From Rhodospirillales bacterium (GTDB lineage: Bacteria; Pseudomonadota; Alphaproteobacteria; Acetobacterales; Acetobacteraceae): a stretch of 18,229 nucleotides of DNA. The position numbers and the translations under genes are program-made. The DNA is taken from positions 1 to 18,229 of the forward strand of contig CAHJXG010000460.1 in the NCBI GenBank assembly GCA_903644035.1, given 5' to 3'. The notes under the pieces are model-generated. The model was not told where the DNA came from. It saw nothing but the letters and a program-made list of their open reading frames with translations, and did not search any database. Shown here piece by piece: positions 2,058 through 10,571 of the stretch (its first letter is position 1; each line of letters opens with the position of its first letter).

Positions 2058-2099
2058 GGTAGCCTGGTGGGACCTGACGGCGTGCTGCGATGCCGCGAG

Positions 2100-2128
2100 G
2101 GGAAGGTGTCCCGAGGACGCCCCTTCCC
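2100..2128 (+). terminator. Hairpin after the acyltransferase gene
   Basis: GGGAAGG (2100-2106) pairs with CCTTCCC (2122-2128), and an inner GTCC/GGAC stem (2108-2111 with 2115-2118) closes on a CGA loop. It lies 43 bases after the stop codon. No T-run follows, so it could be a weak terminator or a leader structure of the downstream operon. Confidence 0.3.
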
Positions 2129-2170
2129 GGACCCTTCGCGCCGGGACCTCTCACCAGGGTGGATGGGCAA

Positions 2171-2193
2171 GAAACCGGTGCAGTTGAAACCGG
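2171..2193 (+). repeat. Direct repeat GAAACCGG x2 in operon leader
   Basis: GAAACCGG occurs at 2171-2178 and again at 2186-2193, 15 bases apart, directly upstream of the ABC-operon ribosome-binding site. It might be a pair of regulator half-sites or chance. Confidence 0.35.
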
Positions 2194-2209
2194 CAGGAAG
2201 GGGAAGACC

Positions 2210-3562
2210 ATGCGACCGCTGCTACGAACCGTGAGTGCCGCCGTCCTGTTCGCCGGGGCGCTGCTGGCGACGCCGCCCGCCCAGGCGCAGGGCTGGGACA
2301 TCGCCAAGGCCGCCGCGCCCTACAAGGGCACCCAGCTCAACGTGATCTTCCTGGATCGGCCGGGCTACCGCGCCATCATCAAGCTGCTGCCGGAGTTCGA
2401 GAAGCAGACGGGCATCAAGGTCAACTACGAGATCGTCCCCTACGAGAACACCCGCGAGAAGGAGGTGCTCAACTTCAACTCGAAGGGCGACCTCTCGATC
2501 GCGCTCGTGGACCTGGTCTGGATCGGTGAGTTCGCGGAGAACGGCTGGATCGTGCCGGTCAGCAAGCTCTCGGGCGACGCCGCGATCACCGATCCCAACC
2601 TGAACCTCAAGGGCTTCTTCCCGCTGCTGCTCGACGCCTTCGGCTCCTGGGGCGGGACGACCTACGGCCTGCCGTTCGACAACTACTCGGGCCTGCTGTT
2701 CTACAACAAGTGCATGCTGAAGGACGCCGGCTTCGACAAGCCGCCCGCCACCTGGGACGAGCTGGCCAACACCTATGCGCCGAAGCTGACCGTTCCTGCC
2801 AAGAAGCAGTACGGCTACGCGCTGCAGTCGCTCCGCGGCGAGACGCAGTCGGCCGACAGCTTCATGCGGATGCTCTGGCCCGCCGGCGGCTCGCTGCTGG
2901 ACAAGTCGTTCCGCTCGAACCTCGGATCCAAGGACAGCCAGGCCGGGCTGCAGTTCCGCCAGGACCTGATGAAGTACATGCCCCCGGGCGTCGTCAGCTG
3001 GGACCATGCGGAGGCGGTCAATGCCTTCGCGCAGAACCAAGTCGCCATGATCACCGAATGGTCGGCGTTCTACTCGACCGTCACCGATCCCAAGACCTCC
3101 AAGCTCGGCGACTGCCTGGGCGTCGCGCCGGAGCCGGCCGGGGCGGCGGGCCGCCTGCCGGCGCTGGGCGGCTTCTCGCTCGCCGTCGCCTCGCAGGCGC
3201 CGGAGAAGGAGCAGAAGGCGGCCTGGATCTTCATCCAGTGGGCGACGTCGGAGGCCATCGCCAAGCCCTATGTGCAGGCAGGCGGCGTGTCGGGCCGCAT
3301 GGCGGTCTATGACGACCCGGCCATCAAGTCCGCCTACCAGTTCGTGGACCCCATGGTCGCCTCCTGGCAGAAGGGCGTGCCGGAGTTCCGGCCGCGCTTC
3401 CCGGCCTGGCCCGCGGTGTCGGAGGTCGTCGGCGAGTTCGGCTCGAAGATGATGCTGGGCGAGCTGACCGTCGAGCAGGGCGCGAAGGAGATCGGCACCC
3501 GGATGGAAGCCATCCTGCAGAAGGAAGGCTACTACGACGGTAAGAAGAAGCTGATCCAATAA
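2210..3562 (+). CDS. Sugar ABC transporter substrate-binding protein (family 1)
   Basis: The 450-residue protein has a Sec signal peptide: MRPLLRT, a hydrophobic core, then PPAQA with cleavage expected after about residue 26. The mature domain follows the extracellular solute-binding family 1 pattern (MalE/UgpB class), including IIKLLPEFEKQTGIKVNYEIVPY near the start, TYGLPFDNYSGLLFYNK in the middle and a late ALGGFSLAVAS segment. It would capture a sugar or polyol in the periplasm for the permeases downstream. I start at ATG 2210, which has AGGAAGGGG about 6 bases before it and leads directly into the signal peptide. A longer frame from 2090 would add 40 unconvincing residues. It is the first gene of a five-gene operon. 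The ligand is not readable, but the SDR at the operon end suggests a polyol or ketose. Confidence 0.9.
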   Translation: MRPLLRTVSAAVLFAGALLATPPAQAQGWDIAKAAAPYKGTQLNVIFLDRPGYRAIIKLLPEFEKQTGIKVNYEIVPYENTREKEVLNFNSKGDLSIALVDLVWIGEFAENGWIVPVSKLSGDAAITDPNLNLKGFFPLLLDAFGSWGGTTYGLPFDNYSGLLFYNKCMLKDAGFDKPPATWDELANTYAPKLTVPAKKQYGYALQSLRGETQSADSFMRMLWPAGGSLLDKSFRSNLGSKDSQAGLQFRQDLMKYMPPGVVSWDHAEAVNAFAQNQVAMITEWSAFYSTVTDPKTSKLGDCLGVAPEPAGAAGRLPALGGFSLAVASQAPEKEQKAAWIFIQWATSEAIAKPYVQAGGVSGRMAVYDDPAIKSAYQFVDPMVASWQKGVPEFRPRFPAWPAVSEVVGEFGSKMMLGELTVEQGAKEIGTRMEAILQKEGYYDGKKKLIQ

Positions 3563-3585
3563 CGGCTTCGGCCCTGTCCGACTGC

Positions 3586-3614
3586 GCGGGGACCGGCCGA
3601 CAGGCGGTCCCCGC
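3586..3614 (+). terminator. Intercistronic stem-loop between binding protein and permease genes
   Basis: GCGGGGACCG (3586-3595) is exactly complementary to CGGTCCCCGC (3605-3614), with a 9-base loop. It sits in the 85-base gap after the binding-protein gene. There is no T-run, so it is more likely an mRNA-stabilising or partly terminating hairpin that lets the binding protein outnumber the permeases, as known for other binding-protein operons. Confidence 0.55.
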
Positions 3615-3647
3615 ATCCCGGCGCACGCGCCGCCTCCTCAGGGCTGG

Positions 3648-4565
3648 GTGACTGCCTGCATGTCCGCCGCACCACCGCGACGCTCCTATTCCGGCTACGG
3701 GCGCTTCACGCCGCTGTGGTTCCTGGCCCCGGCGGTCCTGGCGCTGCTGGTGATCGGCATCTACCCCACGCTGTTCGCCCTGGTGACGTCGCTCCGCCAG
3801 TATAACCTCACCCGGTCGCGCGACGGCTTCCCGTTCATAGGCCTCGCCAACTACCAGCAGGTGCTCAGCGACCCGACCTTCTGGGAGACGCTGGGCCGGA
3901 CCGCCAAGTTCTTCCTGTGCGTGATGCCGGCCGAGATCGGGCTGGGCCTCGGCATCGCGCTGCTGCTGCACCAGCCGGGCCTTGGGGCGCTGCGCGCCCT
4001 GGCGCGGGTGTCGCTCGTCATCCCGCTCGCCACCACCTACGCGGTCGTGGGCCTGCTCGGCCGGCTGATCTTCAACCGGGACTTCGGCATCGCCAACGGC
4101 TTCATCGGGCTGTTCGGCGTGCCGGCGTTCGACTGGCTGGGCAACAGCGCCGGGGCGTTCGCGGCCATCTGCATCATGGACGTGTGGCAGTGGACGCCGT
4201 TCTGCGCGCTGATCTTCCTGTCGGGCCTGTCCATGGTCCCCGTCGAGATCGAGGAGGCCGCCCGGCTGGAAACCGGCAGCAAGGCCGCGCTGCTGCGCAA
4301 CGTGCAGCTGCCCTATCTGCTGCCGGGCTTCACCGCCATGCTGATCCTGCGCTCGGCCGACGTGCTGAAGCTGTTCGACGTGGTGTTCACCATGACCCGG
4401 GGCGGCCCGGGGGCGGCCACCGAGCTGATCTCGGTCTACATCCAGCGCGTGGGCTTCCGGGTGTTCGACCTCGGCACGGCGTCGGCGCAGGCGCTGCTGC
4501 TGCTGGTCATCACCATCATCCTGGCCCGCGTGTATATCCGCTTCTTCTACCGGGAGATCGAGTGA
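3648..4565 (+). CDS. Sugar ABC transporter permease (MalF/UgpA type)
   Basis: The 305-residue inner-membrane protein has about six hydrophobic helices. Near residues 200-220 it carries the cytoplasmic EAA loop (EIEEAARLETGSKAALLRNV followed by LPYLLPG), which docks onto the ATPase. The segment FTMTRGGPGAATELISVYIQ near the end is typical of MalF/UgpA-family sugar permeases. I take GTG at 3648 because AGGG lies 4 bases before it. ATG at 3660 is in frame and would shorten the protein by four residues. The stop codon overlaps the start of the next permease by one base (TGATG), indicating translational coupling. Its partner is the second permease, and together they form the membrane channel. Confidence 0.9.
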   Translation: MTACMSAAPPRRSYSGYGRFTPLWFLAPAVLALLVIGIYPTLFALVTSLRQYNLTRSRDGFPFIGLANYQQVLSDPTFWETLGRTAKFFLCVMPAEIGLGLGIALLLHQPGLGALRALARVSLVIPLATTYAVVGLLGRLIFNRDFGIANGFIGLFGVPAFDWLGNSAGAFAAICIMDVWQWTPFCALIFLSGLSMVPVEIEEAARLETGSKAALLRNVQLPYLLPGFTAMLILRSADVLKLFDVVFTMTRGGPGAATELISVYIQRVGFRVFDLGTASAQALLLLVITIILARVYIRFFYREIE

Positions 4566-5380
4566 TGCCGCGCTTCGGGCGACTGCTGCACGGCGCTGGG
4601 CTGCTGCTCGTCTTCGCGGTGACGATCTTCCCGTTCTACTGGATGGTGTCGTCCTCGTTCAAGACGCAGACCGACCTGCTCGCCTCGCCGCCGGTCTGGC
4701 TGTTCACGCCGACGCTCGCCAACTACGCCGAGGTGTTCGCCGACCAGAAGGTGGTGGGCGCCATCGTCAACTCGCTGATCGTCGCGGTGTTCAGCACCCT
4801 GCTGGCGGTGGTGCTCGGCACGCCCGCGGCCTTTGCGCTCGCGCGCTACGACTTCCGCGGCAAGTCGGACCTTTGGTTCTGGTTCATCTCGAACCGCTTC
4901 ATCAGCCCCATCGTGCTGGCGCTGCCGATCTACCTCGTGGCGCAGAACATCGGCCTGCTCGACACCCACCTCATCCTGATCCTGGTCTACATCACCTTCA
5001 TCCTGCCCATCGTCGTCTGGATCTGCACCGACCAGTTCCGCTCGATCCCCCGGGATCTGGAGGAGGCGGCGCGGCTTGAGGGCGCCAGCCAGTTCGACAT
5101 CTTCTGGCGCATCTACTTGCCGCTCGGCGTGCCCGGCATCGCGGTCTCGGCGATCTTCGGCTTCATTTTCTCCTGGAACGAGCTGCTGTACGCGCTCGTG
5201 CTCACCCGCCGCGCCGTGCAGACCGCGCCGGTGGTGGCGACCAGCTTCATGTCGGGCTACGAGCTGCCCTGGGGGAAGATCATGGCGACCGGCACCGTGA
5301 TCGTGCTGCCGGTGACGATCTTCGCGCTGCTGGTGTCGCGCCACATGGTGCGCGGCCTCACCATGGGCGCAACCAAATGA
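4565..5380 (+). CDS. Sugar ABC transporter permease (MalG/UgpE type)
   Basis: The 271-residue protein has about six membrane helices and an EAA loop near residues 163-190 (DLEEAARLEGASQFDIFWRI then YLPLGVPG). The opening helix with FPFYWMVSSSFK is characteristic of MalG/UgpE-family carbohydrate permeases. ATG at 4565 shares its A with the stop codon of the preceding permease, so the two are translationally coupled and made in equal amounts. It acts as the second half of the transmembrane pore. Confidence 0.92.
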   Translation: MPRFGRLLHGAGLLLVFAVTIFPFYWMVSSSFKTQTDLLASPPVWLFTPTLANYAEVFADQKVVGAIVNSLIVAVFSTLLAVVLGTPAAFALARYDFRGKSDLWFWFISNRFISPIVLALPIYLVAQNIGLLDTHLILILVYITFILPIVVWICTDQFRSIPRDLEEAARLEGASQFDIFWRIYLPLGVPGIAVSAIFGFIFSWNELLYALVLTRRAVQTAPVVATSFMSGYELPWGKIMATGTVIVLPVTIFALLVSRHMVRGLTMGATK

Positions 5381-5402
5381 CGGCCAAGGAGGGCGCGCGC
5401 GC

Positions 5403-6497
<1,095 letters not shown>

Positions 6498-7255: not shown

Positions 7256-8266
7256 TCAGCCGTTGCGGAACGTGTAGCTGTAGCCGTTCAGCGCCGGGGC
7301 GCCGCCGAGATGCGCGTAGAGCACCTTTGATCCCTTCGGGAAGTAGCCCTTCTGCACGAGGTCGATCATCCCCTGCATGGACTTGCCCTCGTAAACCGGG
7401 TCGGTGATCATCCCCTCCAGCCGGGCGGACAGGCGGATGGCCTCGACCGTCTCCTTCGACGGCACGCCGTAGACGGGGTAGGCGTAGTCTTCGAGCAGGA
7501 CGATGTCGTCCTCCGTGACGTCCTGCCCGCCGATAAGGTCCGCGGTCTTCTGCGCGATGTCGAGCACCTGGGCCTTGGTCTGGGCCGGCGTGCCGGAGGC
7601 GTCGATGCCGATGACGTTGCGCGCCCGCCCGTCGGCGGCGAACCCCACCACCATGCCGGCATGGGTCGAGCCGGTGACGGTGCACACGACGATGAAGTCG
7701 AACCGCAGGCCCATCTCGGCCTCCTGCGCCCGCACCTCCTCGGCGAACCCGACATAGCCCAGGCCGCCAAGCTTGTGCACGGAGGCGCCGGCCGGGATGG
7801 CGTAGGGCCTGCCGCCCTTGGCCTTCACGTCCTCGATGGCGCGCGTCCAGCTCTCGCGGATGCCGATGTCGAAGCCGTCGTCCACCAGCTGCGTCTCGGC
7901 GCCCATGATGCGGGACAGCAGGATGTTGCCGACACGGTCGTAGACCGCATCCTCGTGCGGCACCCAGCTTTCCTGGATCAGGCGGCACTTCATGCCGATC
8001 TTGGCCGCGACGGCCGCCACCATGCGCGTGTGGTTGGACTGGACGCCGCCGATGGAGACCAGGGTGTCGGCGTTGCTCGCGATGGCGTCGGGCACGATGT
8101 ACTCGAGCTTCCGGAGCTTGTTGCCGCCATAGGCCAGGCCCGAGTTGCAGTCCTCGCGCTTGGCATAGAGTTCGATGCCGCCGCCCAGGTGCTCCGTCAA
8201 GCGGGCCAGCCTCTCGATGGGCGTGGGGCCAAACGTCAGCTTGTAGCGTTCGAATTTCGAGAGCAC
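7256..8266 (-). CDS. acdS: 1-aminocyclopropane-1-carboxylate (ACC) deaminase
   Basis: The 336-residue PLP enzyme converts ACC, the plant ethylene precursor, to 2-oxobutanoate and ammonia. The PLP-binding Lys is residue 50 in [11 protein letters not shown], and the conserved Ser77 lies in [10 protein letters not shown]. The residues known to separate true ACC deaminases from D-cysteine desulfhydrases are present: Tyr-Glu at 292-293 in DPVYEGK and Leu320 in AHLGGAP. Desulfhydrases have Thr at the last two of these sites. Length matches the family (about 338). The start is GTG at 8266, giving [20 protein letters not shown], the usual N-terminus, with AAGGGA about 9 bases upstream. It is divergent from an Lrp-type regulator, the classical acdS-acdR arrangement. 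The enzyme is cytoplasmic and supplies nitrogen and carbon. Confidence 0.95.
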
Positions 8267-8332
8267 CGGGGCCGTTCCCTTAAATATGTGAGGCCTTCAT
8301 GCTACCAACTCAAGCCAGGAATGTGCTCTCAG

Positions 8333-8395
8333 ATTTCAGGGTGGCTGCGGCCTATGACGCCTAGATCTCCGGGCTGAAATCCAAAAGCCTTTCAG
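8333..8395. promoter_or_regulatory. Candidate AcdR operator: three TTTCAG half-sites
   Basis: The acdS-acdR intergenic region contains ATTTCAG (8333-8339), its reverse complement CTGAAAT (8374-8380) and TTTCAG (8390-8395). The last two form an inverted repeat, CTGAAA-N10-TTTCAG. The first two are centred about 41 bases apart, near four helical turns. Lrp-family regulators bind such spaced, weakly symmetric sites. The AcdR assignment is inferred from position. Confidence 0.45.
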
Positions 8396-8398
8396 TCT

Positions 8399-8412
8399 GG
8401 AGCCGCGTCATA
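8399..8412 (+). promoter_or_regulatory. Ribosome-binding site pointing to an ATA start
   Basis: GGAG at 8399-8402 is followed by 7 bases and then ATA at 8410-8412, in frame with the Lrp-type regulator. No ATG, GTG or TTG occurs between the upstream in-frame TAG and the internal ATG at 8488. The spacing is ideal for ATA and useless for ATG 8488. Confidence 0.5.
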
Positions 8413-8889
8413 AAAGCATCTTCCGAGCAACAGCCGCTCGACCAGATCGACAGCAGGATCATCCGGCTGCTGCAGGCGGAGGGCCGCATGAGCAATGCGG
8501 ACATCGCCAAGCGCGTGAACACGAGCGCCGCCACCTGTCACCGCCGCATCCAGCGGTTGTTCGAGGACGGCACCATCAACGCCGTCCGTGCGCAGGTCGC
8601 CCCCGACAGGGTGGGCCGGGGCTGCCTGGTGATCGTGGGCGTCGTCCTGGACCGCTCGACCCCGGAGAGCTTCGCCGCCTTCGAGGCAGCCGCGCGGTCC
8701 ATGCCGATGATCCTGGACTGCCATCTGGTCGCCGGCGACTTCGACTACTTCCTGAAGATCCGGGTGCGGGATCTGGCCGACTTCAACCGGCTGCACGGCG
8801 AGAGGCTGATCGCGCTCCCAGGCGTCCGGCAGACGCGGACGTTCTTCGTGATGAAGGAGGTCGTCGATAACGCCCCGCTGAACCTGTAG
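8410..8889 (+). CDS. acdR: Lrp/AsnC-family regulator of ACC deaminase, non-canonical ATA start
   Basis: Read from ATA 8410 the protein is 159 residues, the normal size of Lrp/AsnC regulators. LDQIDSRIIRLLQAEGRMSN forms helix 1, the helix-turn-helix follows (ADIAKRVNTSAATCHRRIQRL), and then the ligand-binding AsnC/RAM domain runs from about residue 65 to the end, including HLVAGDFDYFLKIRV and LPGVRQTRTFFVMKEV. The first conventional start, ATG 8488, would delete helix 1 and leave a 133-residue protein with a damaged DNA-binding domain. Divergence from acdS matches known acdR genes, whose products activate acdS in response to ACC and act as Lrp-type oligomers. The ATA could be a real rare start, or a mutated ATG that lowers or abolishes expression. 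Family assignment is firm; the start is inferred. Confidence 0.8.
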   Translation: MKASSEQQPLDQIDSRIIRLLQAEGRMSNADIAKRVNTSAATCHRRIQRLFEDGTINAVRAQVAPDRVGRGCLVIVGVVLDRSTPESFAAFEAAARSMPMILDCHLVAGDFDYFLKIRVRDLADFNRLHGERLIALPGVRQTRTFFVMKEVVDNAPLNL

Positions 8890-8924
8890 GGCCGCAGGCG
8901 CATTTCGGGCGGCCTCCACCGGCT

Positions 8925-8940
8925 TGGCACTTCGCTTGCT
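8925..8940 (+). promoter_or_regulatory. Sigma-54 (RpoN) -24/-12 promoter
   Basis: TGGCAC (8925-8930), five bases, then TTGCT (8936-8940) matches the sigma-54 consensus TGGCAC-N5-TTGCW at every conserved position. The GG and GC are separated by exactly 10 bases. The predicted transcript start is near 8951, giving a 22-base leader that keeps the ribosome-binding site CGGAGG (8959-8964) of the next gene. Such promoters need an AAA+ activator (NtrC/NifA class), which is not seen in the window. Confidence 0.7.
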
Positions 8941-8972
8941 TGTCCAGTCCCGTTCAAGCGGAGGCATTCCTG

Positions 8973-10556
8973 ATGAGACGACGAGAGCTTCTGGCCGCCG
9001 CGGCCCTGGCCGGCGCCCTGCCGCGGCCGTCCATCGCCCAAGGGGCCGCCGCGCGCACGCTGCGGTTCATCCCCGAGGGCAACCTCGCCAATCCCGACCC
9101 GATCTGGACCACCACCACGGTCGCCCGCAACCACGGCTTCCTGATCTACGACACGCTGTTCGGCATGGACGCGAAGCTCGCCCCCAAGCCGCAGATGTGC
9201 GAGGGCTACGCGCTGTCGGACGACAAGCTCACCTGGACCTTCCGGCTCCGCGAGGGGCTGCGGTTCCATGACGGCACGCCGGTCCGCGGCGCCGACTGCA
9301 TCGCCTCCATCAGCCGGTGGAGCAAGCGCGACGGCTTCGGCCAGCGCCTGGCCGCGCAGCTTGAGGGCCTGTCGGCGGCCGATGACCGGAGCTTCACGGT
9401 CAAGCTCACCCGGCCGTTCCCGCTGCTCGCCGCAGCCCTCGCGAAGCCCGCGGCCAACGTGTGCTTCATCATGCCGGAGCGGGTGGCACAGACCGACGCC
9501 TTCACCCAGATCACCGACTTCACGGGATCAGGCCCGTTCCGCTTCGTGCGCGACGAGTGGACGCCGGGGTCGCGCGCGGTCTATGCGCGCTTCGACGGCT
9601 ACGCGCCGCGGCAGGAAGCGCCGGACTTCACCGCCGGCGGCAAGGCCGCGCACTTCGACCGGGTCGAATGGAACATCATTCCAGACTCCGCCACCGCCGC
9701 CGCCGCGATGCAGACGGGCGAGGCGGATTGGTGGCAGACGCCGATCGCCGACCTGCTGCCGCAGCTCCGCCGGATGCGCGGGGTCAAGGTCGTGCCGATG
9801 ACCAGCGTCGGCAGCATCTACATCATCCGCTTCAACCACCTGCACCCGCCGTTCAACAACCCGCTGATGCGGCAGGCCGTGCTGCGGCTGGCGGACCAGA
9901 CCGCGTTCATGCAGGCCGCCTATGGCGACGAGACGAGCGCGTACCGGACCGGGGTGGGCGTGTTCACCCCGGGATCGCCGGCCGCGACCGACCTGGGCCT
10001 CGACGCCGTCACCGGCCCGCGCAGCCTGGATGCGGCCAAACGCCTGGTGGCGGAGGCGGGCTACAAGGGGGAGCGGATCGTCATCATCGCACCCACCGAC
10101 TATCCCTGGCTGGAGGCGTTCTGCCAGGTCACGCGCGACCTGCTGCTGAAGCTCGGGCTGAACGTCGATTACCAGGCGAGCGACTGGGGTACCGTCGTGC
10201 AGCGCCGGGCCAGCAAGGAGCCGGTGGACAAGGGCGGCTGGAGCATCTTCTGCACCGGCTGGGAGGGGCTGAACACGGCCGACCCCGGCGGCCACTACCC
10301 GATCCTCGGCAACGGCGGGAGCGCCTGGTTCGGCTGGCCCACCAGCCCGCGCATCGAGCAGCTCCGCACCGACTGGTTCGAGGCGCCGGACGACGCCGCG
10401 CGCCGCCGGGCGACGGACGCGATCCAGGCGGCGGTGTGGGCGGAGGTGCCCTACGTGCCGCTCGGACAGTTCTTCCAGCCCGCGGCGATGCGGAACACCG
10501 TCACCGGCGTGCTCGACAGCCCGTTCCCGATCTTCTGGAACGCCCGGAAGGGGTGA
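8973..10556 (+). CDS. Orphan ABC substrate-binding protein, family 5 (peptide/nickel type)
   Basis: The 527-residue exported protein begins MRRRELLAAAALAGALPRPSIAQG, a twin-arginine-like leader of the style common in Acetobacteraceae, with cleavage expected after IAQ or nearby. The mature part follows the DppA/OppA-type family 5 layout. It shows LIYDTLFGMDAKLAPKPQM, then LTWTFRLREGLRFHDGTPV near residues 85-105, DFTGSGPFRFVRDEW in the middle and RFNHLHPPFNNPLMRQAVL later. Ligands in this family include peptides, nickel, opines and other amino compounds. ATG 8973 has CGGAGG 8 bases upstream; an extension back to 8940 would overlap the sigma-54 promoter. No permease or ATPase genes adjoin it. 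It follows acdR by 83 bases and converges with the LacI-type gene (15-base gap). The nitrogen-type promoter suggests scavenging of a nitrogenous ligand, which is an inference. Confidence 0.88.
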   Translation: MRRRELLAAAALAGALPRPSIAQGAAARTLRFIPEGNLANPDPIWTTTTVARNHGFLIYDTLFGMDAKLAPKPQMCEGYALSDDKLTWTFRLREGLRFHDGTPVRGADCIASISRWSKRDGFGQRLAAQLEGLSAADDRSFTVKLTRPFPLLAAALAKPAANVCFIMPERVAQTDAFTQITDFTGSGPFRFVRDEWTPGSRAVYARFDGYAPRQEAPDFTAGGKAAHFDRVEWNIIPDSATAAAAMQTGEADWWQTPIADLLPQLRRMRGVKVVPMTSVGSIYIIRFNHLHPPFNNPLMRQAVLRLADQTAFMQAAYGDETSAYRTGVGVFTPGSPAATDLGLDAVTGPRSLDAAKRLVAEAGYKGERIVIIAPTDYPWLEAFCQVTRDLLLKLGLNVDYQASDWGTVVQRRASKEPVDKGGWSIFCTGWEGLNTADPGGHYPILGNGGSAWFGWPTSPRIEQLRTDWFEAPDDAARRRATDAIQAAVWAEVPYVPLGQFFQPAAMRNTVTGVLDSPFPIFWNARKG

Positions 10557-10571
10557 GGGCCAGGGCCGCCC

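Follow-up and report, generated by a model that had tools for sequence, protein, structure and literature searches.

This locus raises two questions: whether a short element in front of an orphan solute-binding protein gene is a working sigma-54 promoter, and whether its place beside genes for ACC deaminase and an AcdR-like regulator tells us anything about its function. The window, by which we mean the whole stretch of 18,229 nucleotides that was analysed, belongs to a metagenome-assembled genome (MAG) of 3.33 Mb in 604 contigs that is 73% complete, and whose close relatives are Acetobacteraceae MAGs. The relevant features are:

7259..8266, minus strand: acdS, ACC deaminase (TIGR01274, 565 bits, cut-off 392)
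8365..8889, plus strand: acdR-like Lrp/AsnC open frame (PF01037/PF13404), not conserved with the promoter
8919..10571 (to 10557 in one), plus strand: block homologous to both sister genomes (blastn)
8925..8930, plus strand: -24 element TGGCAC (TGGCAT in both sister orthologues)
8936..8940, plus strand: -12 element TTGCT (identical in both sister orthologues)
8951..8972, plus strand: putative 22-nt 5' leader with GGAGG, predicted from sequence; CAAGCGGAGGC is invariant in three orthologues
8973..10556, plus strand: SBP_bac_5 solute-binding protein of 527 aa (PF00496, E 5e-67; closest solved chain 8vdx_A, E 1e-149)

Positions 8925-8940 read TGGCACTTCGCTTGCT, which has the form TGGCAC-N5-TTGCT and is the only exact match to it in the whole window. 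Ten bases separate GG (8926-8927) from GC (8938-8939), the spacing that the initial annotation had given, so that a GG-N10-GC pair at -24/-12 lies within a sequence near TGGCAC-N5-TTGCW, as is characteristic of sigma-54 promoters. The accompanying claim that every consensus base is present is true of the wording TGGCAC-N5-7-TTGCT found in an excerpt of PMC12316311, but not of the longer consensus TGGCACG-N4-TTGCW found in an excerpt of PMC3538637, where the base after TGGCAC is G and not T as here. Taking C8939 as -12, transcription would be expected to start at about 8951, and the resulting leader of 22 nt would retain the Shine-Dalgarno sequence GGAGG (8960-8964) ahead of the ATG at 8973, in agreement with the annotated leader. 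A simple scan of 8200-9100 with an E. coli-type consensus returned no sigma-70-like promoter, where only 0.1 matches are expected in shuffled sequences.

The letters of the site are by themselves weak proof against chance. As a control we used the backward pattern of the -24/-12 motif, counted in the identical genomes. The exact TTGCT form occurs four times in the source genome against three backward controls (the TTGCA form four times against none), and the window holds no excess of matches with up to two mismatches (6 against 8.1 expected). The case was therefore built on position, on relatives and on controls across the genus. The genus sample comprises four genomes, our own and three others, two of the four being only 67-73% complete. 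In these genomes TGGC[AC][CT]-N5-TTGC[AT] has 134 matches and the backward pattern 52, with a p of 8e-10 that is too small, as orthologous sites were each counted. The surroundings of all 134 sites were covered: 71 are intergenic and at most 250 bp 5' of a gene on the same strand, compared with 1 of 30 controls (Fisher p 9e-8, again too small because orthologous sites are not independent). The controls placed were 30 of the 52 backward sites, and adding two met in other loci gives 1 of 32. By box, the intergenic sites before a gene make up 35/42 for TGGCAC, 15/24 for TGGCAT, 15/41 for TGGCCC and 6/27 for TGGCCT, and the backward count of TGGCAC forms in the genus, 15, translates into an expectation of 3.7e-5 for each 100 nt upstream of a gene. 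These assignments depend on gene calls made without annotation by a simple codon-score caller, trained on 16 long frames, that sets some start codons plainly too late, as in L030, which really begins at the start of L031. Of the other sites, 46 fall within called genes, and 17 are neither within a gene nor closely before one; the sites that are kept between genomes or paralogues form 21 clusters, of which 12 are intergenic throughout, 5 intragenic throughout and 4 mixed. Since some matches are intragenic, not every match is a promoter. The genus-wide excess and the preference for intergenic positions nevertheless bear out the annotated sigma-54 promoter of the binding-protein gene.

An orthologue of this gene is present in three of the four genus genomes, namely our own and two sisters at 89% (G002 and G003), the best match in the remaining genome (G001) being 52%. 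In both sister orthologues (2/2), TGGCATTCCGCTTGCT stands at -48 from the ATG, the same distance as in our genome, and in blastn the homologous DNA begins at 8919, six bp 5' of the -24 element. The gene in G003 is flanked by an M20 peptidase-family gene upstream and a purine nucleoside permease gene downstream, and the 300 bp upstream of the gene in G002 match those in G003. The start of homology at 8919, together with a different upstream gene in the sisters, indicates that element, leader and gene stay together. Among the three orthologues, the invariant positions are 10/11 in the motif, 4/5 in the spacer, 20/32 in the leader and 4/12 in the 5' flank; the contrast between motif and flank is suggestive, coming from three sequences of which the two sister orthologues resemble each other. 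The contrast is clearer in a four-species paralogue group compared without gaps (motif 11/11, spacer 1/5, leader 13/35, 5' flank 1/9), which was first noticed via the motif, yet has the motif in all four species.

The element recurs before more distant members of the family. Of 24 genus loci (2 orthologues and 22 paralogous or partial sequences), 7, in three orthologue groups, carry TGGC[AC][CT]-N5-TTGCT at -48 to -52; chance would give about 0.013 matches of this class even across 39 upstream regions, each 250 nt long. TGGCCT-N5-TTGCT also stands at -52 before another paralogue. For relatives whose match began within the protein (L011, L016-L020 and some genus loci), we placed the start from the residue offset, which makes those distances approximate. 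Within 250 nt upstream, 17 of 19 relatives in the genome_contigs set lack the element, four of the 17 showing weak matches elsewhere, and the remaining two are the sister orthologues. A 78% Acidisphaera relative, whose gene stands after those for two permeases and an ATPase, has no such site. The annotated site is kept in both genus orthologues, and once position and relatives are counted the evidence for it is strong. As a separate observation, two family-5 binding-protein genes stand in tandem on one contig of each genome (G000:C578, G003:C52, G001:C395 and G002:C466), and the second gene of the pair has its own TGGCCC-N5-TTGCT element within the gap.

The protein itself begins with MRRRELL, which by eye looks like a Tat-type N-terminus. 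No ABC permease gene adjoins 8973..10556, and the gene is, as annotated, an orphan in this contig; its 3' neighbour encodes a LacI-type regulator on the opposite strand, and farther away, at 2090-6497, is an importer of the sugar type with a binding protein, two permeases and an ATPase. Relatives of this binding protein have undergone a large expansion across the genus genomes, with 23, 18, 28 and 35 relatives in G000-G003, respectively, at E <= 0.001. Among plasmid records, 253 match the query, none over more than 80% of it; the 40 matches listed begin within the coding region and are therefore uninformative on the promoter.

The genes that follow the genus sites suggest what the set may be for. 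Pfam was run on 40 of the 71 downstream proteins, the other 31 being mostly orthologue duplicates with a few singletons (L075, L084, L109, L114, L116, L122). Solute-binding domains (families 3, 5 and 6, Peripla_BP_5/6 and NMT1 types) occur in 17 of the 40, a purely descriptive count in genomes that are rich in binding-protein genes (18-35 relatives of this protein each). The other transporters are two MFS proteins, a cytosine/purine permease, a dicarboxylate symporter, an ABC permease and an ABC ATPase, and the enzymes include two formamidases/acetamidases (FmdA/AmdA), a flavin amine oxidase, an isochorismatase-family protein and ChaC. Four proteins have no plain nitrogen role (an endonuclease, a glycosyltransferase, a Rieske protein and an ice-binding-like repeat), and 8 of the 40 gave no Pfam family at E <= 1e-6. 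Two -24/-12-like sites, L025 (G000:C102) and L107 (G001:C155), lie 132-150 bp before a highly repetitive protein, which in L025 has a Pfam match to an ice-binding beta-roll. At L086, L163 and L185 such sites precede a conserved stretch, the L185 protein having no Pfam match at E <= 1e-6.

The source genome encodes RpoN (TIGR02395, 373 bits against a cut-off of 277) and has six activator-domain matches over cut-off, four of them strong. NtrC (L059; TIGR01818, 698 bits against 559) has both Walker A and GAFTGA; the latter matters because, according to an excerpt of PMC10274813, the NtrC of Caulobacter lacks this loop. NtrX (L062, 688 bits against 600) has GADPIA in place of GAFTGA, and lacking GAFTGA it is probably unable to open sigma-54 promoters itself. 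A FlbD-like protein with GAFSGA (680 bits) falls below its cut-off of 750, as does a response regulator with GSFTGA (L061, best 382 bits against 503). Neither NifA nor NifH exceeded its cut-off in any of the four genus genomes, two of them only 67-73% complete. NifA sites have the form TGT-N10-ACA, and within 220 bp upstream no such site was found with one mismatch or fewer. The best NtrC-type dyad at the site has 5 mismatches in 12 positions, or 2 in 8 for the short form. Upstream of 66 intergenic sites, no consensus form for NtrC or NifA was enriched, and a de novo search for 4+4 and 5+5 dyads 5' of intergenic sites gave nothing convincing. GCCG-N7-CGGC was considered as an enhancer (7/45 against a shuffle maximum of 6) and rejected, as GCCG leads at other gaps too, which we read as G+C bias. 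No NtrC enhancer was recognised, so the activator remains putative, with NtrC as the best candidate.

The initial annotation had proposed a nitrogen-responsive module of uptake and deamination, and this proposal has to be divided. Its nitrogen-scavenging half is plausible and partly supported. The other half, in which uptake of ACC or a similar amine under nitrogen control is tied to acdS and acdR, draws on adjacency in this contig, on the common direction of acdR and the binding-protein gene, which are 83 bp apart, and on the fact that both functions can serve nitrogen supply. However, the neighbourhood is not kept in the genus, and a joint module is therefore not supported. The two sister genomes have acdS (92%) on contigs other than those of the binding-protein gene, and only the acdS stretch of the window matches these contigs, which end 128-169 bp past acdS. 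With blastn, no acdR homology was found on the upstream side of sister acdS (in 12 of the 16 kb of the G003 contig and all of the G002 contig), and at E <= 1e-25 acdR is found in one of the four genus genomes, our own. The acdS gene is divergent from the acdR frame, and the best -24/-12 match on the acdS-facing strand of 8201-8990 agrees at only 8/11 bases (8471-8486). We consider a module joining the binding protein with acdS very unlikely, and the position of the site beside the ACC deaminase genes looks accidental. The first possible in-frame start (ATG, GTG or TTG) of the acdR-like frame is at 8488, within the AsnC-type helix-turn-helix (~8437-8559); this may reflect a rare start, decay or a MAG error.

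Other readings of the element itself carry different weights. It could be inert, the gene being transcribed from an undetected sigma-70 promoter or by polymerase reading through from acdR. The acdR frame lies upstream on the same strand, read-through from it is possible because no terminator was found between the two genes, and in the source genome exact TTGCT matches barely outnumber their controls. This reading is nevertheless improbable, as element and leader are kept in the sisters, where acdR is not a neighbour, the motif is enriched between genes and the simple scan gave no sigma-70-like site. The conserved block might instead be an operator or an RNA hairpin, CGCTTG (8933-8938) being complementary to CAAGCG (8955-8960) next to the ribosome-binding site, which would account for its conservation. 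All three orthologues have this inverted repeat; the RNA, however, folds no better than shuffled sequences (z +1.14, +0.51 and +0.29), on which ground we rejected a hairpin. In addition, the -24 half is conserved yet outside the repeat, and by eye the four-species paralogue group has the -24/-12 motif without it, which leaves this the least probable of the readings considered. A genuine sigma-54 promoter might also answer to another enhancer-binding protein and a non-nitrogen signal, the candidates being the FlbD-like protein, L061 or an activator encoded in the missing quarter of the MAG. In favour are the GAFSGA and GSFTGA motifs of the first two, the failure to find an NtrC box, the 73% completeness of the genome, and further activator-like matches in G001 and G003. 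Nevertheless, the many uptake genes and amide/amine-degrading enzymes downstream fit nitrogen better than flagellar or stress control, NtrX is without GAFTGA, and we regard this explanation as unlikely.

The reading we prefer is that RNA polymerase with sigma-54 (RpoN) would read the -24/-12 promoter at 8925-8940 of the gene at 8973. Under nitrogen limitation NtrC, most likely, would open this promoter, one of many in the genus; the cell would then make an extra periplasmic binding protein, which may capture a small nitrogen-containing solute and feed it to a permease encoded elsewhere. Sequence shows the element, where it lies and that it is conserved, as well as the regulon-like set of sites and the genes for RpoN and NtrC; the transcription start, activation by NtrC, nitrogen response, substrate and use of a distant permease are inferred. 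On these grounds it is highly likely that 8925-8940 works as a sigma-54 promoter for the binding-protein gene; its joint control by NtrC and nitrogen limitation is likely, and we give the whole explanation a probability of about 0.75. More speculatively, sigma-54 may run a starvation programme in this genus, which shows no NifH over cut-off, that consists largely of binding proteins, some without permeases of their own, with an expanded family-5 clan spread over the genome and bearing portable -24/-12 promoters, promoter and gene moving as a cassette, and receptors being swapped onto a few shared permeases under nitrogen limitation. We hold this broader scenario to be doubtful, but if true, receptor swapping would make sense of the dozens of binding proteins retained in these genomes. 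More immediately, the analysis gives what was a motif match comparative support as a promoter and sketches the sigma-54 set of the genus, and it cautions that gene adjacency to acdS cannot be read as function.

Among known systems, the locus most resembles the RpoN/NtrC nitrogen-scavenging regulons of Proteobacteria, in which sigma-54 sites likewise precede genes for binding proteins and for amide and amine catabolism, and the NtrC and RpoN genes are present here as well. It differs from them in having no recognisable NtrC box and in leaning towards solute-binding proteins, several of which belong to a single expanded family-5 clan. We found no literature on RpoN and NtrC in Acetobacteraceae, but do not claim on that ground that a regulon of this kind is new to science. 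In Mesorhizobium loti a -24/-12 element is also associated with an ACC deaminase gene, and the annotated precedent of rhizobial acdS under NifA/RpoN control is correct for this species: its acdS promoter is itself of the NifA/RpoN type, and the site drives acdS with NifA2 (excerpt of PMC3538637). The analogy does not extend to our genus, where the site drives the binding protein, no NifA exceeds its cut-off and no NifA-type site lies within the 220 bp upstream. Control of the ACC deaminase gene by AcdR/Lrp has been reviewed (PMC4563596, in excerpt), and the present arrangement of acdS, acdR and binding-protein gene is not described in the excerpts of PMC3538637 or PMC4563596. By profile and sequence, the protein belongs with the family-5 solute-binding proteins (SBP_bac_5; 8vdx_A, GsiB/YliB, NikA and DppA), although it scores under the curated cut-off of every one of the 10 NCBIfam models listed. 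Set beside these systems, the site is very probably a genuine sigma-54 promoter, sound but ordinary as regulatory sites go, and one of a set mostly preceding nutrient-uptake genes in a little-studied genus.
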